From positions 1-36,213 of IMG/VR virus record IMGVR_UViG_3300020459_000035: a DNA stretch of 36,213 nt; one strand, given 5' to 3'. Source of the DNA: a virus. This document shows, one piece after another, positions 295 through 30,160 of the stretch. Within the stretch, counting starts at the first letter, position 1. Every line of letters starts with the position of its first letter. The notes beneath the pieces are model-generated. The model worked only from the letters and a program-made list of their open reading frames with translations. It made no database searches and was not told where the DNA came from. The position numbers were made by a program, and so were the translations under genes.

Positions 295-297
295 TTA

Positions 298-312
298 TTA
301 AACACAGTACCT
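298..312 (+). repeat. Variant copy of the TTAAACGCAGTAGG repeat
   Basis: ATTAAACACAGTACC lies between the stop of the 33-aa peptide and the terminator. It matches the dispersed repeat (see 9568 and 12340) at 12 of 14 positions and, like the copy at 30103, is followed immediately by a second TTCTTAAACAT segment. Confidence 0.45.
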
Positions 313-336
313 TCTTAAACATAGAAGGTTTTTTTT
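309..336 (+). terminator. Rho-independent terminator
   Basis: Stem CCTTCT (310-315) / AGAAGG (323-328), extended by A309-T329, with loop TAAACAT and an eight-T tract from 329. It separates the tiny upstream genes from the holin-endolysin group. Confidence 0.8.
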
Positions 337-4322: not shown

Positions 4323-4475
4323 ATGAACATACAAATAGAATTTATAAAAGGTTTTGTTGTTGGGATTGATTACGTTGATGATATAGAAATTCCAGAATAT
4401 AATAAAACTGTAGAACTTATTAGAATTAGTTTAGGTATAGTCTGGATTAATTTTTTTATATTTAATAATGCTTGA
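4323..4475 (+). CDS. Small 50-aa protein between rusA and the sigma-like gene
   Basis: ATG 4323 lies one base after the RusA stop and TGA 4473-4475 overlaps the next ATG at 4468. The sequence has an N-terminal FIKGFVVGIDYVDD segment, a central EIPEYNKTVELIRISLGI and an aromatic end (VWINFFIF). The tight joins argue for a real gene. No function is known. Confidence 0.6.
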   Translation: MNIQIEFIKGFVVGIDYVDDIEIPEYNKTVELIRISLGIVWINFFIFNNA

Positions 4476-5028
4476 GTTATTATCTAAAAACCATAATACT
4501 TGGATTGCGATGGGATTGTCTATTGGTATCCCAAAACACTTAGTCGAAGACTTCGTACACGAGATGTATCTTAGATTAAACAAGTATGTTGGAGACCCTA
4601 AAAAAATAATGTATAATGAAAAAGAGGTGAATAAGTTTTATGTTTATGTTACACTAAAAAACTTGTGGGGAGATTATTCTAAAGCTAAGGGTAAATATAA
4701 GATAATAAGAATAGATGATTTTGAAGTTAGTTATGAGGTGGTTGATGGTGAAGCAGAGAATTATAACTATTCTAAACACAATGCTGAAGACAGATTAATT
4801 AGTAAGATAAAATCTGAAGTAGAAGATTGGGAACATTGGTACGATAGAAAATTATTTAAAATATATTATGAAACCGATATTAGTATGCGTAAATTAGCAA
4901 AAGAGACTAACATAAGTGTTACTTCTATATTTAATAGTTGTAAAAACTATAAAGACATAATCAAGTCAAAGTTCGGTGAAGACTTTGAGGATTATTTAAA
5001 CGGAGAGTTTGATTTAATTAAAAAGTAA
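4468..5028 (+). CDS. RNA polymerase sigma-factor-like protein
   Basis: The 186-aa protein resembles small sigma-70/ECF-type factors. V26-E-D-F-V-H-E-M-Y-L-R-L37 matches the region 2 helix (EDLVQEVFLRL type), F57-Y-V-Y-V-T-L-K-N-L follows like region 2.4, and the C-terminus has a region 4-like helix-turn-helix at about 139-160 (SMRKLAKETNISVTSIFNSC). Phages of Bacteroidetes often carry such a protein, plausibly directing host polymerase to late promoters. The late operon at 15331 lacks a good host -33 box, in line with that idea. An alternative is a sigma-derived antitermination or regulatory protein. Confidence 0.65.
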   Translation: MLELLSKNHNTWIAMGLSIGIPKHLVEDFVHEMYLRLNKYVGDPKKIMYNEKEVNKFYVYVTLKNLWGDYSKAKGKYKIIRIDDFEVSYEVVDGEAENYNYSKHNAEDRLISKIKSEVEDWEHWYDRKLFKIYYETDISMRKLAKETNISVTSIFNSCKNYKDIIKSKFGEDFEDYLNGEFDLIKK

Positions 5029-6960: not shown

Positions 6961-7180
6961 TACTTATAAATATAGAATAGAATATGCCTATTATTTAACA
7001 TTAGTAGATATTTTAATGGGCATCTCTTTGGAGGAAATTTTAGCGGAAGTTTATGAATATGAGATTAGTGAAAATTATGAATATTGTGCTGGTATTCAAA
7101 AAGCTATAACATTTAGCAGAAACAAAAACTACAGCGAAATACAAAAAGAAATAATTAAATTAAAAGAAAGATATGAATAA
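6932..7180 (+). CDS. Unknown 82-aa acidic protein
   Basis: I chose ATG 6932, within the 3' end of the exonuclease gene, because upstream codons of this frame lie wholly inside that gene and read like a shadow. The protein begins MNTLEEVLYDTYKYRIEYA, is acidic and Tyr-rich in the middle (EEILAEVYEYEISENYEY) and ends in a helix (SEIQKEIIKLKERYE). The stop overlaps the DnaA-like gene by 8 nt. The pairing suggests co-expression with that DNA-binding protein. No family recognised. Confidence 0.65.
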   Translation: MNTLEEVLYDTYKYRIEYAYYLTLVDILMGISLEEILAEVYEYEISENYEYCAGIQKAITFSRNKNYSEIQKEIIKLKERYE

Positions 7181-7577
7181 AATTACATTAAACGGAATAA
7201 AGGTTATGGTCTCTAAAAAGCTACACATAAGTATTGGTAGGACAATAAGAAAAAGAGATTATGTTTATGGTAGAGCAATATATTATAAGTTATCAAAAGA
7301 GTTTACAGGTCAATCATTATCAAACATTGGAGCAAATGTTGGAAGAGACCACGCTTCTGTAATACACGGACTTAAAGTCTTTGAAATGATAAAGCTATAT
7401 AATGACAGCTATATGGATGTTTATTTGGAGTGTAGGAGAATTCTTACAGATATTAAAAACGATAAAAATAATTCAGAACATTCAGATTATTGGAGAGACA
7501 GGTATGATAACCTAAAAGAGCTTTATGTTCTTGCTGTAGAAAAGTTGGCTAAGTATGAGAAGGAGAAGGTCGCCTAA
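7173..7577 (+). CDS. Stand-alone DnaA domain IV-like DNA-binding protein
   Basis: The 134-aa protein contains the C-terminal DnaA helix-turn-helix region: G33-R-A-I-Y-Y-K-L-S-K-E-F-T-G-Q-S-L-S-N-I-G, then G57-R-D-H-A-S-V-I-H65, the DnaA signature that reads bases of the DnaA box. The AAA+ domain of DnaA is absent. A coiled, charged C-terminus follows. It may bind DnaA boxes to mark the phage origin, compete with host DnaA, or regulate promoters. A consensus DnaA box is found on the minus strand at 9612-9620, just beyond terL. Confidence 0.8.
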   Translation: MNKITLNGIKVMVSKKLHISIGRTIRKRDYVYGRAIYYKLSKEFTGQSLSNIGANVGRDHASVIHGLKVFEMIKLYNDSYMDVYLECRRILTDIKNDKNNSEHSDYWRDRYDNLKELYVLAVEKLAKYEKEKVA

Positions 7578-8215: not shown

Positions 8216-8364
8216 TGAAATGTTCAGCCTGTTCAGATGATTTATTATGGGGTGGAGACCACGATTACGAAGACTATGGAGAAGAGGGGGATGGTATTGT
8301 TGGAAACTATAGTTGTGTAAATAAAAAATGCAATGTAGATATGGTTTTAATTTACACTAAATGA
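8212..8364 (+). CDS. 50-aa zinc-ribbon-like protein
   Basis: ATG 8212 overlaps the preceding TGA and the ORF ends TGA 8362-8364, overlapping the TerL ATG. Cysteines at 4, 7, 35 and 40 (C-x2-C … C-x4-C) could form a small zinc ribbon around an acidic centre (DYEDYGEEGDG). Its place between the two terminase genes suggests a packaging accessory or just a small overlapping gene. Tight overlaps on both sides support it. Confidence 0.65.
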   Translation: MMKCSACSDDLLWGGDHDYEDYGEEGDGIVGNYSCVNKKCNVDMVLIYTK

Positions 8365-9566
8365 ATAAACCAGTTCTTAATAATAAATATAATGCTCTTG
8401 GTAATGACACTAGATACTTTGTTATAACAGGAGGAAGGGGAAGTGGTAAGTCATTCGCTATAACCACCTTTTTAGCCTTTCTAACGTTTGAACAGGGTCA
8501 CAAGATACTATTCACTAGGTACACTATGATAAGTGCCGCTAACTCAATTATTCCAGAGTTCTTAGAGAAGCTTCAGCTTTATAATATACTAGAACATTTT
8601 CGTATAACTAAAGATGAAATCTTAAACATAAGTACTGGAAGCTCAATACTGTTTAAAGGTATTCGTACATCAGCAGGTAATCAAACTGCTGCATTAAAGT
8701 CTATTAGTGGAATTACTACTTGGGTACTTGATGAAGCTGAAGAGTTAATTAAGGAGGAAGACTTTGACAAGATAGACCAATCGGTTCGTTCTAAAGCTAA
8801 ACCTAATAGGGTTATTATGGTATTAAACCCAGCTACTAAAGAGCATTGGTTATATCAAAGATTCTTTGCAGGTAAGGCGGTAAACGCAGGATATAATGGA
8901 ATGAAAGATATTGTTACATATATCCACACCACATTTAAAGACAATGTAGAGAATTTATCAGAGTCATTCTTATTACAATTAGAAGACATAAGAAGAAGAA
9001 GACCAGATAGATACAATCATCAGATAATGGGTGGATGGTTAGATAAAGCAGAAGGTGTTGTGTTTAGTAATTGGAAGGTTGGACCTTTTAATACAGGTGC
9101 TGATTATATATTTGGTCAGGATTTTGGTTTTTCTGTTGACCCTACCACATTAATTAAAGTAGCAATAGATAAAGATAGAAGAACCATATGGATTAAAACA
9201 ATGTACGCAAAGCCTGGACTATCTACAAAAGAAATAGGAGAACTCAATAGGAGATATGCAGGAGAAGATTTAATTATATGTGATTCAGCAGAACCTAGAC
9301 TTATATCTGAATTGCAAGAGTATTGCAATATAAAACCTACCATTAAACGCAAAGGGTCTATTCTTTCAGGGATTGCTTTGGTTCAGGACTTTGATTTAGT
9401 AATTGACTCCGATAGTTTAGAGCTGATAAAAGAGCTAAATAATTATGTTTGGCACGAGAGGAACGAAAAACCTGTTGACAGATGGAACCATCAGCTAGAC
9501 GCACTTCGATACTCCGCACAATATTTCCTCGCCAACGCAAATAAAGGCGTTTATGTGATAAGGTAG
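8361..9566 (+). CDS. terL: Terminase large subunit (ATPase/nuclease)
   Basis: A 401-aa protein with both TerL domains. The ATPase has Walker A G24-G-R-G-S-G-K-S31 and Walker B W121-V-L-D-E-A-E-E128. The RNase H-like nuclease has acidic residues D253 (GQDFGFSVDP), D307 (ICDSAEP) and D379 (HQLDALRY). It pumps and cuts phage DNA at the portal vertex. Length is a little short of the usual 420-500 residues but all motifs are present. It is the last + strand gene before the 370-nt control region; the portal gene is 21 kb away, an unusual separation. Confidence 0.95.
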   Translation: MNKPVLNNKYNALGNDTRYFVITGGRGSGKSFAITTFLAFLTFEQGHKILFTRYTMISAANSIIPEFLEKLQLYNILEHFRITKDEILNISTGSSILFKGIRTSAGNQTAALKSISGITTWVLDEAEELIKEEDFDKIDQSVRSKAKPNRVIMVLNPATKEHWLYQRFFAGKAVNAGYNGMKDIVTYIHTTFKDNVENLSESFLLQLEDIRRRRPDRYNHQIMGGWLDKAEGVVFSNWKVGPFNTGADYIFGQDFGFSVDPTTLIKVAIDKDRRTIWIKTMYAKPGLSTKEIGELNRRYAGEDLIICDSAEPRLISELQEYCNIKPTIKRKGSILSGIALVQDFDLVIDSDSLELIKELNNYVWHERNEKPVDRWNHQLDALRYSAQYFLANANKGVYVIR

Positions 9567-9814
9567 TCATTAAACGCAGTAGGGTTTATTATTTTCTTAA
9601 ACGCAGTAGGTTGTGGATAATAATATTCAATATAAAAATGTGTAGTCGCATAGATTGTTAGGAAAATAATAATTGTAAAAATCAAAGCAGATAGTATAAT
9701 TAATAAAGATTCTCTAACCTTCTTATTCTTTCTTAAACGCAGTAGGTTTTTCCTTGTCTTGATTCTTAAACGCAGTAGGGAAAATTGGTTTATGTGTATT
9801 CCTGTAAAATTCAT
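9551..9814 (-). CDS. Possible 87-aa membrane protein, the only minus-strand candidate
   Basis: The ORF fills the gap after terL in convergent orientation and ends 16 nt inside it. It contains a convincing membrane segment (ESLLIILSALIFTIIIFLTIYA) and a basic N-terminus. A TACATTTG box (9820-9827, minus strand) lies 5 nt upstream of its ATG, which would give a nearly leaderless mRNA. The dispersed repeat is translated in two frames within it, as LLRLR twice and PTAF twice, so part of its sequence is repeat-derived. It may instead be a chance ORF in a control region. Confidence 0.35.
   Translation of the reverse strand: MNFTGIHINQFSLLRLRIKTRKNLLRLRKNKKVRESLLIILSALIFTIIIFLTIYATTHFYIEYYYPQPTAFKKIINPTAFNDYLIT
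9568..9611 (+). repeat. Dispersed repeat TTCTTAAACGCAGTAGG, copies 1-2
   Basis: CATTAAACGCAGTAGGG begins at 9568, two bases after the terL stop; TTCTTAAACGCAGTAGG is at 9594-9610. TTAAAC cores start at 9570 and 9597. The second copy abuts the DnaA box at 9612. Only these intergenic regions and a few operon ends carry the unit. Confidence 0.85.
9612..9620 (-). promoter_or_regulatory. Consensus DnaA box (TTATCCACA on the minus strand)
   Basis: TGTGGATAA on the + strand is a perfect complement of the TTATCCACA DnaA box, in a 370-nt AT-rich intergenic region with repeats on both sides. The phage encodes a DnaA domain IV-like protein at 7173. One box alone could occur by chance in 36 kb, but its location makes an origin or DnaA-controlled site plausible. 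Confidence 0.6.
9730..9780 (+). repeat. Dispersed repeat, copies 3-4
   Basis: Two copies of TTCTTAAACGCAGTAGG at 9730-9746 and 9763-9780, TTAAAC cores 33 bp apart (9733, 9766). Identical in the 17-bp core to copies at 9594, 12340 and 12404. Confidence 0.85.
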
Positions 9815-11684: not shown

Positions 11685-11810
11685 ATGAAAAAGAAGAAAA
11701 CATTTAAAGAGATTATGATTGAAAAACTTTTAGACGAAGGAATAAGTAAAAGTTTTATAGACTCTAATATGGAGTTTATTGATTCAGACAATAAGAAACA
11801 AAACAACTAA
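11685..11810 (+). CDS. Unknown 41-aa protein
   Basis: ATG 11685 to TAA 11808-11810. Charged helical peptide (MKKKKTFKEIMIEKLLDEGI). It follows the 20-bp tandem repeat and its stop lies inside the conserved leader of the next gene. No family recognised. Confidence 0.55.
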   Translation: MKKKKTFKEIMIEKLLDEGISKSFIDSNMEFIDSDNKKQNN

Positions 11811-12169: not shown

Positions 12170-12346
12170 ATGAATTATAAAAATACAACACTAGCAACTT
12201 TAGATTATATTGCAGTAATTAAATATGGTATGTCAGAGGAAAAAGGTTTCTTTGGCTCTACCGAGACTGTTCAAGAATTAATCTTAAAGGATTATAACGA
12301 GGATAAGTACGCTTGGAGAAACGAGGTACTATCCAGAAATTCTTAA
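12170..12346 (+). CDS. Unknown 58-aa early protein
   Basis: ATG 12170 has the conserved leader. Sequence: MNYKNTTLATLDYIAVIKYG … KDYNEDKYAWRNEVLSRNS. Its stop TAA lies inside the first unit of the 21-bp repeat array (AATTCTTAAACGC), exactly as the tail tube gene ends at 30109. No family recognised. Confidence 0.6.
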   Translation: MNYKNTTLATLDYIAVIKYGMSEEKGFFGSTETVQELILKDYNEDKYAWRNEVLSRNS

Positions 12347-12420
12347 ACGCAGTAGGGTAATCATTAAACGCAGTAGGGTAATCATTAAACGCAGTACCCA
12401 GATTCTTAAACGCAGTAGGT
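12340..12420 (+). repeat. Array of four repeat units with an exact 21-bp period
   Basis: TTAAAC cores start at 12343, 12364, 12385 and 12406, giving a constant 21-bp period (two helical turns). Units read TTAAACGCAGTAGGG, TTAAACGCAGTAGGG, TTAAACGCAGTACCC and TTAAACGCAGTAGGT, alternating between TTC and TCA lead-ins. The third unit carries CCC where the others have GGG, so units 2 and 3 can pair (GGGTA/TACCC). The phasing is iteron-like and suggests cooperative protein binding. Confidence 0.9.
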
Positions 12421-12452: not shown

Positions 12453-12460
12453 TAATTTTG
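12453..12460 (+). promoter_or_regulatory. Promoter -7 box after the palindrome
   Basis: TAATTTTG matches TAnnTTTG exactly. With a 20-nt spacer the -33 element falls on TTTAG at 12428-12432, inside the palindrome. No ORF starts within 450 nt downstream, so a transcript from here would begin as a long untranslated RNA. Confidence 0.5.
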
Positions 12461-12900
12461 CTAAATGTTAAAGTTTTGTTAAAGTGCATAAATTATTTTG
12501 TTGTTATAAATTATTTTTGTATAGCTTTTCAATATGTTAAAGTTTTGTTAAAGTGCGTTAAAAATTTGGTTATTATATAAAAATTATTATGGGTTGTTTA
12601 GGGTTGAAAAGTTGCGAAATTATATAGAAGGTTTGACAATTCCTAGTAAACAATGTTAAGTAATTGTTAAGTTTTTGTTTATATCTCCAGAGGCATTTTA
12701 AAGCGATTTAACGGCACTTTGTTTGTTTCTAGTACCTTACCACTAAAAACTCGAGAAAGTAAAAAATCCTTTAAACATAAGGCTTGCGAGAGGGTTTTTG
12801 CTGTAAGTTACTGATGCTTAATATATTATCCTTCAAATGTTAATTATTTGTTAAAATTATATTTTGATGATGTTACTTTTAAAATATAATCGTAGTATTG
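12461..12900 (+). ncRNA. Possible untranslated RNA / structured control region
   Basis: This gap of about 590 nt between the genes ending 12346 and starting 12941 has no ORF of note. Besides the boxes described, 12750-12799 folds: CTCG 12750-12753 with CGAG 12787-12790, AAG with CTT inside, and CCTT 12768-12771 with AAGG 12779-12782 around the loop TAAACAT. An alternative pairing is AAAAATCC 12762-12769 with GGGTTTTT 12792-12799. Transcription could start from the box at 12453. RNA identity is speculative. Confidence 0.3.
12466..12854 (+). promoter_or_regulatory. Four clusters of 11-bp-phased TGTTAA boxes
   Basis: TGTTAA starts at 12466 and 12477; 12535 and 12546; 12654 and 12665 (plus TGTTTA at 12676); 12838 and 12849. 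Every within-cluster spacing is exactly 11 bp. The first two clusters share an identical 23-bp segment (12465-12487, 12534-12556). The last cluster ends 19 nt before TACTTTTA (12874-12881), a near -7 box leading to the gene at 12941. This is the same unit as at 9847, in opposite orientation. Confidence 0.6.
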
Positions 12901-21459: not shown

Positions 21460-24425
21460 TGAATCAAAAAATACAGCTTTATATAGAAAATGAACAGGTT
21501 GATGTTTTTCAAGATGGTACAATAAACCTAGTAAGTTCTATAAAGGATTTTCGTAGTCCAGATAAACTATTTACAGATTTTAGTAGAAATTTTTCTTTAC
21601 CTGCTTCAGCTAACAACAATAAAGTATTTAAACATTTTTACGATTATGATATTATTGAAGGTGGTTTTGATGCAAGGTCTGCAAAAAACGCAAGAATAGA
21701 AATAAACGACAGACCCTTCAGAGAAGGATATGTTACTCTTGATAAGGTAGATTTAAAGAACAATAAACCCAGTACGTATAAAGTCACATTCTATGGAAAC
21801 CTAAGAACACTAAAAGAATTATTTAATAACCTTAAATTAAGAGACTTAGATTCTTTAGATACCTTTGAAATAACAGACAGAGCTTATGATGCAGCAGATT
21901 CTAATACTTTTTATAATTATATAACAGAAAGTAAAGATATAACAGATACTACTGCTATAACAATAGGAACTGCTAATGGTGTAAAAAAAACATTTCAACT
22001 TCTAAATTATAACCCTTACCCACAGAATAAAACAGATTTTAAAGTTTATTTAGGAGGTGTTGAGCAAAGCTCAAGTAATTATTCATATAGTAGTGTTTCT
22101 GGAACTATAACATTTACATCAGCTCCTTCTTCTGGAACATTAACAACAAAATTATTCTATACTCAACCTGTTGTTGTTCCTTTAATATCTACTACAGAAA
22201 GATTGTATTATACAAGTAGCACGAATTTTTATGGCGTTCTTTCTGATGGTAATTTATACTATAACGCATCTAACTATCCTTTGAATTCAAAACCTAATGG
22301 ACTTAAATTTGAATATTTAAAACCAGCAATAAGAATACACGAGATTATAAAAGCTATTGAAAGGCACGTTAATAAATCATCATCAACAACCAACATAGAG
22401 TTTTCTAATGATTTTTTTAATACTGCAAATTTAGATTATTATAAATTATATATGTGGTTAAATTCTGATGTAGAAGAAAGTAGTTTGTTTAGTTCTGTCT
22501 CAAAAAGAACAAAAGTAAATACTCTTTCTGTTGGAAATTATTATCCTTATGCGACTTATGGGAACATTTCTACATCTATATTTAGCGTGACAGTTACAAA
22601 CTCTTCTGGTTCTACATCTGGTTCTGTTGGTGATAAAGTTATAATATCTGGTGTTGATAATGATTATACAGAAAACATTGAACTTGAGTTTAAGACAGTT
22701 ACCTCAAATACAACCTCTTCGTATTCTGTTGATGTATTGAGAAATGGTGTAGTTTATGAGCAGTTTGGAGGAGGAACAGGCAACAGAACTTTAAGCTTTA
22801 ATGTGGAGCAAGGAGGAGAATATGAGTTTATAATTATTACAGATGATAGTGTTGCTGTAAATTTTGATAGTGGTTTTCAGGCAAAAATCATAAGCAGACC
22901 AAAAAACGATAGGTATGATATTTCTGATGTTGTTATTGGAGGTGGTACATTAAACATAGTAGCTGGAACAGGTAAGTTTTCAATGAGAAAAAATATGCCT
23001 GATATGAGTATTGTTGATTTCTTGTCAGGATTGTTTAAAATGTTTAACCTTGTCTGCTATGTAGAAGGAGACACAAATAGCGGATATACAACTGGTCAAA
23101 CAAATACTAAAAGAATTAGAGTTATGACTTTTGATGCTTATTATTCTTCGTCAAATTCAGAGTTAGATATTACAAGTAAAATAGACATATCTTCTTCATC
23201 AGTAGCTAGAGTTTTACCTTATAGCCAAATAGAGTTTAAATATGAAGACACAGAAGCAATACTTGCAAATCAACACAAAAACTCATTTGGATTAGATTGG
23301 GGTGGTGAAAGATGGGATGCTCCAGATTCAAGAGGTGAAAAAAAATATGAAGTAAAAGTTCCTTTTGCACATCTTAAATTTGAAAGACTAAAAAACGCAT
23401 CTGATGGCTCCTTAACAGGCATACAGGTTGGTTATAGTATAACAAAGGGTAGTAGTGATAAAAATGTAGCTTCCGCATCATCTTTTTATGAACAAAAATA
23501 CAACCCACATATAGGGAAGCCTGTTTTGTTTTATCCTTATAGGATAACAAGCGGAACAACAATTCCATATACAGCAAGAAACACAGCAGGTAATACTGTG
23601 GCTCAATCTGTTACTTTATCAAATTATTTTATACCATTAAATTCAGTAGATATAAATACATCTCAATCTAATCACTTTGGTTTAGAGATAGATGAGTATA
23701 GAGTTTATACATCAGGAGAACAGAGTAACGTAAACAATTTATTTAATTTATATTACAAAAACTATATATCTCATTTATTTGACATAAAGTCAAGAGTCAT
23801 AAATCTTAAAGCTAACCTAACAAACGCCTTTTTATCTAAATTTTCACTAGCTGATAAAATTAGAGTATCAGGAAAAACATATAGTATAAACAAAATAGAT
23901 GTTAATTTGGTAAACGGTAAAGCGAACTTAGAACTACAAAGATATTATTCTATAAAATCTTTTTCCTGTTTATCAGGTGAATTTTCTGTAAGTATAGAAA
24001 CTACATCAGCAGGAAATGTTTATTATTTTGATAATAAGTATGGTACTTATCAAATGGGTCAAGGAACTTATGTTTTAGAAGATGTACCTTCAGCTCATCC
24101 TATAGCTTTTCATAATTTTGGTAAAGAGGATAGAATTAGTTATACAGGTACTACAAGCGGTGGTACAAAAGCAGGTCTTGACGGTAAAACATATACCTTT
24201 TATTCTGGAACAATAACAGTAACGGTTGATGGTGATTTTGGGACTATTAGTTATGAATGTTATAATCACGGATATATGGGAGGTCAAGACAACTTGATAT
24301 ATAACGCAGATTGTGTTGCTGAATCATCACCAATAGCTCCTCCAGTTACAGGGACATTAACAGTAGATGATACAGATATTACTGTAGATGATGCAATTAT
24401 AACAGCAGACCAAACAGACGAATAA
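21459..24425 (+). CDS. Tail tip/hub-like protein with cupredoxin-like C-terminus
   Basis: 988 aa. The N-terminal 150 residues (SIKDFRSPDKLFTDFSRNFS, LPASANNNKVFKHF) match the tail/baseplate protein family of Bacteroidetes phages. A central part has beta-rich repeats. The C-terminal domain (about 850-950) holds H880/H885, then C934-Y-N-H937-G-Y-M940, a C-x2-H-x2-M pattern like the blue copper ligand set of amicyanin-type cupredoxins. Similar domains ending in HGYMGG are frequent in marine phage structural proteins. Copper binding is untested. Confidence 0.65.
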   Translation: MNQKIQLYIENEQVDVFQDGTINLVSSIKDFRSPDKLFTDFSRNFSLPASANNNKVFKHFYDYDIIEGGFDARSAKNARIEINDRPFREGYVTLDKVDLKNNKPSTYKVTFYGNLRTLKELFNNLKLRDLDSLDTFEITDRAYDAADSNTFYNYITESKDITDTTAITIGTANGVKKTFQLLNYNPYPQNKTDFKVYLGGVEQSSSNYSYSSVSGTITFTSAPSSGTLTTKLFYTQPVVVPLISTTERLYYTSSTNFYGVLSDGNLYYNASNYPLNSKPNGLKFEYLKPAIRIHEIIKAIERHVNKSSSTTNIEFSNDFFNTANLDYYKLYMWLNSDVEESSLFSSVSKRTKVNTLSVGNYYPYATYGNISTSIFSVTVTNSSGSTSGSVGDKVIISGVDNDYTENIELEFKTVTSNTTSSYSVDVLRNGVVYEQFGGGTGNRTLSFNVEQGGEYEFIIITDDSVAVNFDSGFQAKIISRPKNDRYDISDVVIGGGTLNIVAGTGKFSMRKNMPDMSIVDFLSGLFKMFNLVCYVEGDTNSGYTTGQTNTKRIRVMTFDAYYSSSNSELDITSKIDISSSSVARVLPYSQIEFKYEDTEAILANQHKNSFGLDWGGERWDAPDSRGEKKYEVKVPFAHLKFERLKNASDGSLTGIQVGYSITKGSSDKNVASASSFYEQKYNPHIGKPVLFYPYRITSGTTIPYTARNTAGNTVAQSVTLSNYFIPLNSVDINTSQSNHFGLEIDEYRVYTSGEQSNVNNLFNLYYKNYISHLFDIKSRVINLKANLTNAFLSKFSLADKIRVSGKTYSINKIDVNLVNGKANLELQRYYSIKSFSCLSGEFSVSIETTSAGNVYYFDNKYGTYQMGQGTYVLEDVPSAHPIAFHNFGKEDRISYTGTTSGGTKAGLDGKTYTFYSGTITVTVDGDFGTISYECYNHGYMGGQDNLIYNADCVAESSPIAPPVTGTLTVDDTDITVDDAIITADQTDE

Positions 24426-24583
24426 TGATAAAAGTATTAATAGAAGCACTAAAGACAGATAACTTTTACGGAGTTAGTTATTATATAGATGTAGCAAAAG
24501 GAAGATACAAGTCTCCTACTACATTAAAAGAAATGAAAGAAAGCATTAAACGCAATAGGTATGGCTACAACGCAGGAAAATAG
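24425..24583 (+). CDS. Small 52-aa protein overlapping the tape measure start
   Basis: ATG 24425 overlaps the preceding stop by one base, and the stop TAG 24581-24583 lies inside the tape measure gene. Sequence: MIKVLIEALKTDNFYGVSYY … TLKEMKESIKRNRYGYNAGK. The IKRNR stretch is encoded by a variant of the dispersed repeat (24544-24559). Overlaps at both ends support translation; it could be a tail assembly helper. No family recognised. Confidence 0.5.
   Translation: MIKVLIEALKTDNFYGVSYYIDVAKGRYKSPTTLKEMKESIKRNRYGYNAGK
24544..24559 (+). repeat. Coding variant of the dispersed repeat
   Basis: CATTAAACGCAATAGG differs from the consensus by one base (A for G) and ends one base before the tape measure ATG (24561). 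It encodes IKRNR in the upstream small gene, so coincidence is possible. Confidence 0.4.
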
Positions 24584-26654
24584 AATAATATTCTCGATAG
24601 AGTTTACAGAGAAAGGTGCTATTCGTAAAATAGATGGCGTTAAAACATCTGTCCAAAAGTTTGAAACACAACTTAAAAAAGCAACATTAGCTAACAAACA
24701 GTTTAATCAAACATTAAGTGGTAGGGAGAGTATGACTACTAATGCTGGTCTTGCTGGAGCTACACTTACAGAACTTGGTCGTACTATTTCAGATATGCCT
24801 TATGGTATTCGTGGTGTAGCAAACAACCTATCTCAATTATCTACTTTATTTGTTACAATGGTAGCAAAAGTAGATGATAACGTAAAAGGATTTGCTAGGG
24901 TAGGTAGAGCAATGAAAATGCTTAGAGCTCAATTAATGGGACCTTTAGGAATCGTTCTTGCTTTTCAAATGGCTTTAGCTGCGTTAGATTATTTTGCTGG
25001 TGGCACAAAAAAAGCAAAAGATGAAGTTGATGAACTTACAAAAGCTTTAAATAAACAAAAAGGTTTAAATAACGCTATAAGTATCTATATTGATGTTTTG
25101 AATAACGCTGCTTCTACTGAAGAGCAAAGAATAATAGCACTTGCAAAATTACAAAAAGAAGGATATAACCCAGCGATAGGAAGTTTAGAACAATTTATAG
25201 CAGCGTTAAAACAAAAACAAAAAATGGATTTACTAGATGTAAAAAATTCTAGTAAAATTGCAGATGCAGAAGAAAAAATAGCAGAGTCAAAAGAAAAAAT
25301 AGCTAACGCACAAGATAAAATAAATACTTCTTTTGATGTTAGTCAATCTTATTTAAGAGGAACTTTAGCAGAAGAACAAAGACAAGCTCAATTAGACCTA
25401 ATTGAATTAGAACAAAAAAAGATTGAAGCTGTAAAAACTGATTTAAAGTCATTTATACAAGAAATAGGAGCTGACCCAGACATTGTTAACAATCCTTTTT
25501 TAGCTACAATATTTGGTTTAAAGGCACCTTCTACATCAGACGCAAAAGAAAGCGAAGTTGCTAAAATTGTAAAAAGGCTAAATAAAGAAGTTCAAAAAAT
25601 GTCTGCTGAAAATGCAAGAGAATTATTAGATATAGAAAAACAGTTAGCTTTAGATGAAATAAATTTAGCAGAAGGTTCAAGAAAAGAAAAGAATGAAGCT
25701 ATAAGATTAATTAATGAAAAATTTGCATTAGAGCTAAAAGAGTTTAGAGAAGAAGAATTAGATGAATTTAAAGATTTTGCCGAATCAGAAGTAAACGAGT
25801 CTATAAAATATATTAATGATTTATATAAAGATTATCAAAACAAAAACAAAGAATTAGCAAAAGAAACAGCAGCAGTTGAAAAGGCTGAACAGGACAAGAT
25901 AAGGGAACTATTAAGACAAACAAGAATAGATGCTCAATTAACAAATCAAGCCTTTACATCTACTTTAAACGTCTTGTCTTCTTTAAATGATATTAGACAA
26001 GAGTTTCATCAAGCTGAAATTGACAGGTTAAATAGAGAAAAAGACGTTGTTCTTCATAATGATTCTTTAACACAAGCTGAAAAAGAAAAAAGATTAAAAG
26101 CTATTGAAGTTAAAGAAATGGCAGCTCAAAAAAGAAAAATAAAGTCAGAGAGGGATATGTTTACTTTAGAACAAACTTTAGCAATAGCTCAAAATTTAAT
26201 GAAAGCGAAGTTCTTTGTGATGGAACAGGTAAGAAATGCACAGCTTATAGCTATGCAGGGTAAACAAGCTATGTCTTCTATTATGTTAACTGCAACAGAA
26301 GAAATAAATGAAGGTACAATGTCAATAGGTACTTTTATGAAAGTATTGGGTCCAGCTGGTATTATTGCTTATGGAGCTTCTCTTGGAGTTGCTATAGCTT
26401 CAATTATTAAAGCAAGAAAAGCAGCACAAAATCAAATAAGAAACATAGTCCCTGAAGCAGGGGGAGGTGGTGGAGGTTCTGCACCAGCAGTACAAGCTCC
26501 TGCATTTAATGTAGTTGGTGCTACACAAGAAAGTCAGTTAGCTCAAGTGATAGCTGGTGCTGAAGATAAACCTATAAAAGCTTTTGTTGTAGCATCTGAT
26601 GTATCAACAGCACAAGAACTTGAACGCAGTACAATAGAAGGAGCTTCAATATAA
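24561..26654 (+). CDS. Tape measure protein
   Basis: 697 aa, the longest helical gene of the tail block. Features are extended Lys/Glu/Gln coiled coils (about 200-330 and 400-560), hydrophobic segments near 131-155 (LMGPLGIVLAFQMALAALDY) and 605-640 (VLGPAGIIAYGASLGVAIAS), and a Gly-rich stretch (GGGGGSAPAV) near 645. The protein spans the tail lumen and sets its length. With the usual 0.15 nm per residue, a tail of roughly 100 nm is expected. The repeat variant just before its start and ACTTGAACGCAGTAC near its 3' end are noted. Confidence 0.8.
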   Translation: MATTQENRIIFSIEFTEKGAIRKIDGVKTSVQKFETQLKKATLANKQFNQTLSGRESMTTNAGLAGATLTELGRTISDMPYGIRGVANNLSQLSTLFVTMVAKVDDNVKGFARVGRAMKMLRAQLMGPLGIVLAFQMALAALDYFAGGTKKAKDEVDELTKALNKQKGLNNAISIYIDVLNNAASTEEQRIIALAKLQKEGYNPAIGSLEQFIAALKQKQKMDLLDVKNSSKIADAEEKIAESKEKIANAQDKINTSFDVSQSYLRGTLAEEQRQAQLDLIELEQKKIEAVKTDLKSFIQEIGADPDIVNNPFLATIFGLKAPSTSDAKESEVAKIVKRLNKEVQKMSAENARELLDIEKQLALDEINLAEGSRKEKNEAIRLINEKFALELKEFREEELDEFKDFAESEVNESIKYINDLYKDYQNKNKELAKETAAVEKAEQDKIRELLRQTRIDAQLTNQAFTSTLNVLSSLNDIRQEFHQAEIDRLNREKDVVLHNDSLTQAEKEKRLKAIEVKEMAAQKRKIKSERDMFTLEQTLAIAQNLMKAKFFVMEQVRNAQLIAMQGKQAMSSIMLTATEEINEGTMSIGTFMKVLGPAGIIAYGASLGVAIASIIKARKAAQNQIRNIVPEAGGGGGGSAPAVQAPAFNVVGATQESQLAQVIAGAEDKPIKAFVVASDVSTAQELERSTIEGASI

Positions 26655-29560: not shown

Positions 29561-30109
29561 ATGGCTTGTGATTTAACAAAAGGAAGAAAAGAACCTTGTA
29601 AGGATGTAGTTGGTGGTATAAAATCCATCTATTTTGCAGACTTTGGGGATATAACTATTGCCTATGATTCAACTGACACGGATGTAGTTGAAGATTTAGG
29701 AACAGTAACAGTTTTTGAGTACGAAGTAAAAGGGAACTCATCTTTTGAACAAACAATTAATAGTTCAAGAGAAAATGGTACAACATTTTTTGAGCAAACT
29801 CTAAACTTAACGTTACACAAACTAACTGTACAAGACCACAAAGAATTAAAACTTTTGGCTTATGGAAGACCTCACGTAATTGTGCGAGATTATAATGATA
29901 ACGCATTTTTAATGGGTGCTAATAACGGTGCAGATGTAAGTGGGGGAACTATAGTAACAGGAGCAGCAATGGGAGACCTTTCAGGTTATACATTAACGCT
30001 AACTGGTATGGAAACTAAACCAGCTAACTTCTTAGAAGGTGCTACAGCAGCAGACCCATTCGCAGGGATGACTGGAACAGTAACTGTAACACAAGGTACT
30101 AATTCTTAA
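29561..30109 (+). CDS. Putative major tail (tube) protein
   Basis: 182 aa, rich in beta strands. The MACDLTKGRKEPCKDVVGGI start followed by KSIYFADFGDITIA is common to a protein family of flavobacterial phages. FEQTINSSRENGTTFFEQTL and LNLTLHKLTVQDHKELKLL suggest a tail tube fold. Placed as its own terminator-flanked transcript unit, as expected for a highly expressed structural protein. The stop TAA overlaps a variant repeat copy. Confidence 0.6.
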   Translation: MACDLTKGRKEPCKDVVGGIKSIYFADFGDITIAYDSTDTDVVEDLGTVTVFEYEVKGNSSFEQTINSSRENGTTFFEQTLNLTLHKLTVQDHKELKLLAYGRPHVIVRDYNDNAFLMGANNGADVSGGTIVTGAAMGDLSGYTLTLTGMETKPANFLEGATAADPFAGMTGTVTVTQGTNS

Positions 30110-30129
30110 ACAGAGTAGGTTCTTAAACA
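30103..30129 (+). repeat. Variant copy of the dispersed repeat with a second segment
   Basis: TTCTTAAACAGAGTAGG (30103-30119) includes the stop of the tail tube gene; TTCTTAAACATAAAAGG follows at 30120. The pair has the same order as at 298-328, where it is followed by a terminator as here. Confidence 0.55.
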
Positions 30130-30130
30130 T

Positions 30131-30160
30131 AAAAGGGGGTCATTTGATTCCCTTTTTTTT
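30131..30160 (+). terminator. Rho-independent terminator after the tail tube gene
   Basis: AAAAGGGGGTC pairs with GATTCCCTTTT (two G-U pairs) around a 4-nt loop ATTT, followed by further T residues to 30160. Confidence 0.75.

Follow-up and report, generated by a model that had tools for sequence, protein, structure and literature searches.

Repeat arrays of the viral record

The window (the whole 36,213-nt virus record analyzed) carries a 14-bp motif grouped in four arrays, A to D (Table 1). Seven copies are identical to TTAAACGCAGTAGG, four of them in array A and three in array B, and every strong copy of the motif lies on the plus strand. Copies with up to two mismatches were absent from ten sequences generated from the dinucleotide frequencies of the window, the chance expectation being none. 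An earlier note on this DNA had placed TTAAAC cores exactly 21 bp apart in array B, with coordinates that are right; the four copies that it listed within 9568-9780 are exact, and its degenerate copies at 298 and 30103 are in fact pairs (298/315 and 30106/30123, respectively).

Table 1. Motif arrays, single copies and associated features of the window.
Feature	Position	Strand	Description
Array D	295-328	+	two degenerate copies (298, 315), 17 bp apart
Candidate reader 2	4468-5028	+	186 aa, ECF-type sigma factor-like
Candidate reader 1	7173-7577	+	134 aa, stand-alone DnaA domain IV-like helix-turn-helix
Terminase large subunit (TerL) gene	8361-9566	+	array A lies at the end of this gene in all relatives
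TerL in-gene copy	9343-9356	+	TTAAACGCAAAGGG; about 221 nt before gene end
Array A	9567-9779	+	exact copies at 9570, 9597, 9733 and 9766; starts 4 nt past the TerL stop codon
Array B	12340-12419	+	four 14-bp units, 21-bp spacing: exact copies at 12343, 12364 and 12406; unit at 12385 ends in ACC instead of AGG; starts on a TAA stop triplet
Hairpin TTATTTAGAATCATTCTAAATAA	12424-12447	+	directly 3' of array B; weak, without a long T run
In-gene copy TTAAACGCAATAGG	24546-24559	+	one mismatch; within the 3' end of ORF 24425-24583, which is small and conserved
Array C	30103-30136	+	two degenerate copies (30106, 30123), 17 bp apart
Intrinsic terminator AAAAGGGGGTCATTTGATTCCCTTTT and T run	30131-30156	+	immediately 3' of array C

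Two of the three strongest plus-strand terminators of the window (309-329, 30131-30156 and 2769-2786) adjoin or consist of array units, 2769-2786 being the third. The array D pair itself forms the terminator ACCTTC-TTAAACATA-GAAGGT, followed by eight T residues (309-329). In array C the stop codon of ORF 29561-30109 is the TAA of TTAAAC, and terminators at this position were also found in G002, G003, G007 and G015. The weak hairpin next to array B recurs 3' of arrays in several relatives. Further downstream of array B, positions 12457-12577 contain two imperfect 52-nt repeats (TGTTAAAGTTTTGTTAAAGTGC); relatives have TTAACATT repeats in 10-11 bp steps, ending in TATGTTTG. A promoter of the host type, equipped with operator repeats, is the probable identity.

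Motif sequence, orientation and spacing

The motif, TTAAAC[GC/AT/AC]A[G/A]T[A/G]GG, is asymmetric and can be extended to YYV-TTAAAC-(GC, AT, rarely AC)-A-R-T-R-GG, often with T as the next base. The variable dinucleotide (motif positions 7-8) is strongly coupled (GC 269, AT 118, AC 6 and GT 1), and the GC and AT types may coexist in one genome or even in one array. The 14-mer was not found in the literature searched. Genomes commonly contain 7-17 copies (at up to two mismatches).

In a set of 92 loci and genomes, picked for carrying the motif and then turned to its majority strand, all 504 copies were on the same strand; given this selection and turning, the meaningful fact about strands is that no contig mixes them. 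Since every large gene is on the same strand, orientation with transcription is inseparable from orientation with the genome. A T-rich stretch follows the motif in this set, in which no conserved second element was found downstream.

Across the array-bearing contigs the copies are 17 to 49 bp apart, nearly always by an odd number. A spacing of 17 is the commonest (91 cases), followed by 21 (59), and 19, 23, 25, 27, 29, 31 and 33 also occur. Odd values account for 118 of 133 unique spacers (p 5e-21) and, after similar ones were merged, for 33 of 47 (33 odd, 14 even; p 0.008), and this weakening of parity upon clustering indicates that part of the excess is explained by shared descent. We found no explanation for the odd-number spacing: hairpins within the spacers were considered and rejected, as there was no excess of mirror complementarity. 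The 21-bp period proposed in the earlier note is thus exact in array B and only one of several spacings elsewhere. Its proposal of helical phasing had to be abandoned, as spacings of 17-33 fall on all faces of the helix, those of 17, 19, 23, 25, 27 and 29 being out of phase with 21.

Position of arrays relative to stop codons, terminators and promoters

Four syntenic array places recur across the relatives, in agreement with the earlier suggestion that the copies sit at noncoding operon edges: (i) directly after the TerL gene (A), (ii) 1-3.4 kb further on (B), (iii) at the stop codon of the orthologue of ORF 29561-30109 (C), and (iv) near where the early operon begins (D). The overlap with stop codons, also noticed earlier, is a general property: 57% of 112 distinct arrays have their first base between -6 and +15 nt relative to a stop codon, compared with 9% of random intergenic positions. 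Almost all of these stop-linked starts lie exactly at -4 or +3; the TAA of TTAAAC serves as the stop codon in 32 of the 112 arrays, and in 21 the stop is exactly 3 nt 5' of the motif.

On the downstream side, a terminator-like hairpin is present within 75 nt 3' of 17% of the arrays and of 2.7-2.9% of controls (about six-fold enrichment). In some relatives the terminator is composed of the last motif copy and its complement, for example AACGCAGTG-GGGTTT-CACTGCGTT-TTTTTT in G006 and G009. Host-type TAnnTTTG boxes occur 80-149 nt after the last copy in 37 cases, with about seven expected. The resulting order is stop codon, array, often a terminator, promoter and next gene.

This association with promoter boxes would suit an upstream activator or promoter element of the next operon, used for example by a phage sigma factor, as has been suggested for the repeats of T1-type phages. 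The start codon following array C, 57-88 nt away (57 nt if counted from the end of the last copy), would fit such a role as well, since T1 repeats mostly precede starts by 53-66 nt. However, over the 112 arrays the interval between the last copy and the next start varies (median 211 nt), in contrast to the exact distance to the upstream stop codon; moreover, terminators intervene between motif and gene, and the activator model lacks a conserved second downstream element. We therefore regard a role in activation as unlikely.

Motif copies within genes

Single copies are also found inside coding sequences. In 30 conserved orthologue groups, 36 in-gene copies (at most one mismatch) are located on the coding strand, compared with 2.4±1.5 after synonymous codon shuffling, and none on the non-coding strand; the enrichment over synonymous shuffles is thus 15-fold and restricted to the coding strand. 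As related genomes are not independent, the number of orthologue groups is the fairer figure: 13 of the 30 carry the motif, where 1.65 are expected (maximum 4 in 60 shuffles). The in-gene copies are under selection beyond the protein sequence and are not noise. The copy within the TerL gene (Table 1) reads TTAAACGCAGTGGG in seven relatives, where it precedes the gene end by about 224 nt, and the one at 24546 lies 15 nt 5' of the ATG of ORF 24561-26654. A further recurrent in-gene sequence, TTCAACRTAGTAGG, in the relatives of the latter ORF was discarded, a conserved peptide being its probable cause.

Such selection argues against passive linkers for recombination between gene modules, as proposed in the earlier note, being the main role of the motif. 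The same operon boundaries do carry copies in diverged relatives, as linkers would, but the motif shows defined transitions, the in-gene copies are conserved beyond protein constraint and the strict orientation holds inside genes too, which makes linkers extremely improbable.

Phage family, host and chromosomal copies

The TerL protein shares 53% and the portal protein 33% identity with those of Nonlabens phage P12024S, which itself lacks the motif. The same gene order is found in ten relatives, contigs about 32-36 kb long. From the similarity of TerL and portal, together with the -7 type box TAnnTTTG downstream of the arrays, a Bacteroidota host was inferred; this uncultured phage family probably infects marine Bacteroidota. 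Paired copies of the motif were detected in at least 118 stretches, on more than 100 viral contigs.

Among 84,980 species genomes, chromosomal motif pairs occur in four, all of Bacteroidota. In one (L295:4115-8380) the pair is placed between a tRNA-Val gene and an integrase-like gene, in an apparent small insertion, and in another (L294:9544-11963) it adjoins a tyrosine recombinase gene. These copies may be remnants, satellites or small integrative elements with a phage cis site. No relatives of the integrases beside them were found in the viral contigs, so a link to satellites could not be shown. A host-wide element was rejected, since the pair is present in 1 of 299 family members and the four positive host genomes have only two exact copies each.

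The chromosomal pairs bear on the possibility that the arrays are pac/cos-like packaging repeats for the small terminase subunit, which satellites may copy. In two Bacteroidota genomes the pair adjoins a tRNA or a tyrosine recombinase gene, which would fit satellites that borrow a cis site of their helper, and array A comes immediately after TerL throughout the relatives. Packaging, however, needs one site, as in pac/cos systems with a single site per genome, and here each genome has three to four array loci as well as in-gene copies; chromosomal copies are, furthermore, very rare. We consider this role very unlikely.

The window proteins scanned against PHROGs, Pfam and NCBIfam, which cover part of the ORFs, included neither an integrase nor a match to the L5-family repressor (helix-turn-helix and stoperator domain), and the motif-bearing phages may be strictly lytic.

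Candidate motif-binding proteins

Two window proteins, whose helix-turn-helix folds are assigned by structure prediction, are candidate readers of the motif (Table 1). The structural model of the 134-aa protein fits 1j1v, DnaA domain IV with a DnaA box, at 1.6 angstrom (target TM 0.84). Every array-bearing contig that is long enough encodes a homologue, and the predicted recognition helix varies between phages having the same motif; a relation between this helix and the GC/AT variants was sought and not found. The 186-aa protein matches the ECF sigma profile with E 7e-5, under the curated cut-off, and its model (mean pLDDT 73) has a fold match to 6dv9_F (E 2.5e-4). Its predicted C-terminal helix-turn-helix is nearly invariant. 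The 475-aa ORF located between arrays A and B was dismissed as a general partner, because it belongs to no known family and has a single relative in the viral contigs.

The presence of a DnaA domain IV-like protein in all sufficiently long array-bearing contigs could point to replication origin iterons, one of the readings of array B in the earlier note. The left half of the motif, TTAAAC[GC/AT/AC]A, fits six to seven of the eight specified bases of TTATNCACA, and this gene, in a different phage group, neighbors a repeat-rich region before a large primase-like ORF. The short direct repeats of iterons (P1, RK2 and R6K type; about 17-22 bp) also resemble the arrays. These systems nevertheless have one cluster with phased spacing beside an initiator gene, whereas the motif described here forms arrays at three to four loci in each genome and also occurs within genes, in a single orientation and with variable, unphased spacing, and no Rep or initiator gene is linked to any one array. 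As the GC skew shows no switch and the recognition helix varies without tracking the motif variants, an origin function is highly improbable.

In the other phage group (L209:6200-6480, also L172-L195), the DnaA domain IV-like gene is followed by a region rich in GTTTACAGT and GTGTAAAC repeats, which precedes a 743-aa ORF with a primase-like start; this region is a possible replication origin.

Proposed role and comparison with known systems

The stoperators of L5-type phages are asymmetric 13-mers located in short intergenic spaces and oriented along transcription, which are inactive when reversed (PMC9283540; see also PMC6550527). The motif described here shares with the stoperators of cluster A mycobacteriophages (L5, and the TipsytheTRex repressor) an asymmetric repeated site of 13-14 bp, a single orientation (for which genome polarity is a possible reason), a position in short intergenic spaces at gene boundaries and many copies per genome. 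It differs in its unrelated sequence, its tandem arrays with odd spacings and paired terminators, and the number of sites, commonly 7-17 as against more than 20; stoperators are, in addition, accompanied by repressor and lysogeny genes, of which none was found among the scanned part of the window ORFs.

On the basis of the orientation, placement and conservation of the sites, the selection for in-gene copies, the association with terminators and promoter boxes and the parallels with L5-type and T1 sites, we propose, with a probability of roughly 0.4, that the motif is an asymmetric, directional, stoperator-like site that blocks or gates transcription at operon ends. We infer that a phage DNA-binding protein would occupy the sites in one orientation and halt, pause or gate RNA polymerase arriving from the upstream operon. 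The arrays would begin at the stop codon because in the untranslated stretch ribosomes do not push the block aside. Intrinsic terminators would often back up the arrays, which would form the boundary between the upstream operon and the next operon's promoter, and isolated copies within early genes would attenuate early transcription running the same way. The cooperative repressor sites considered in the earlier note are retained in this form, oriented protein-binding sites being the best reading, without the rotational phasing. Several observations do not favor the stoperator-like model: (i) tandem arrays dominate here, whereas stoperators are mostly single sites, (ii) the odd-number spacing does not follow from it, (iii) the motif is constant among phages whose DnaA-like proteins have differing recognition helices, (iv) the scanned part of the ORFs yielded no L5-family repressor or integrase, and (v) the orientation may equally follow genome polarity.

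The lambda nut, HK022 put and ops elements are oriented cis signals that act on elongation. By analogy with these elements, or with a sigma-dependent pause signal, the motif could be read as part of the nascent transcript or of the non-template strand by a phage factor on RNA polymerase, causing or suppressing termination at the next terminator. The strict orientation, the in-gene copies on the coding strand, the position immediately 5' of terminators, the T-rich stretch after the motif and the nearly invariant helix-turn-helix of the ECF sigma-like protein are all compatible with such a signal. In contrast to nut and put, no conserved RNA hairpin or other structure was found, array B folding no more stably than shuffled sequences (z -0.66), and there was no Rfam match; the sites lie at operon ends, whereas antitermination sites are usually near promoters. 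The variable positions are not wobble-like, and wobble RNA-RNA pairing was rejected because the best-pairing variant, AC, is rare. We judge a signal of this kind rather unlikely.

Oriented intergenic repeats of 21-22 bp, whose role is unknown, have been described in T1-like phages (T1, TLS and Stevie; PMC4319613, PMC11447400). We examined those of T1 (L281). The repeats contain or adjoin the upstream stop codon, which at several sites is the TAG of ATAGCAC; minus-strand repeats serve minus-strand genes, so that orientation follows transcription on both strands. Of the repeats that are intergenic to the tabulated genes, most are 53-66 nt before the next start, and at 38953, 39976 and 41956 annotated rho-independent terminators follow after 2-6 nt. 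The asymmetric repeat with an embedded stop codon and the order stop, motif, terminator and start are as in array C of the window. The sequence is different, T1 sites are single and not in arrays, and the fixed distance to the next start is approached only by array C.

Oriented gene-end repeats are an open question in T1-like phages, their function being listed among the unanswered ones (PMC11447400). A second, unrelated phage group with a T1-like layout, a sharper motif, arrays, in-gene selection and two candidate readers makes this question directly testable. If the stoperator-like reading is true, roadblock-type control of elongation extends past temperate mycobacteriophages. A bolder version, which we find doubtful, is a widespread control element of lytic phages in which the ECF sigma-like or the DnaA domain IV-like protein would read the directional gene-end sites during elongation and the odd spacing would reflect a complex with 2-nt steps; T1-like coliphages and cluster A mycobacteriophages would have arrived at this logic independently.

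Other features of the window

Positions 836-976 encode a very basic 46-aa protein without a Pfam match, which is 54-76% identical to the counterparts detected in related genomes. A leader resembling AAACAACTAAAACTATG recurs immediately 5' of small genes (window positions 11801, 11993, 12155, 13381, 13621 and 14263) and is probably a common translation start region.
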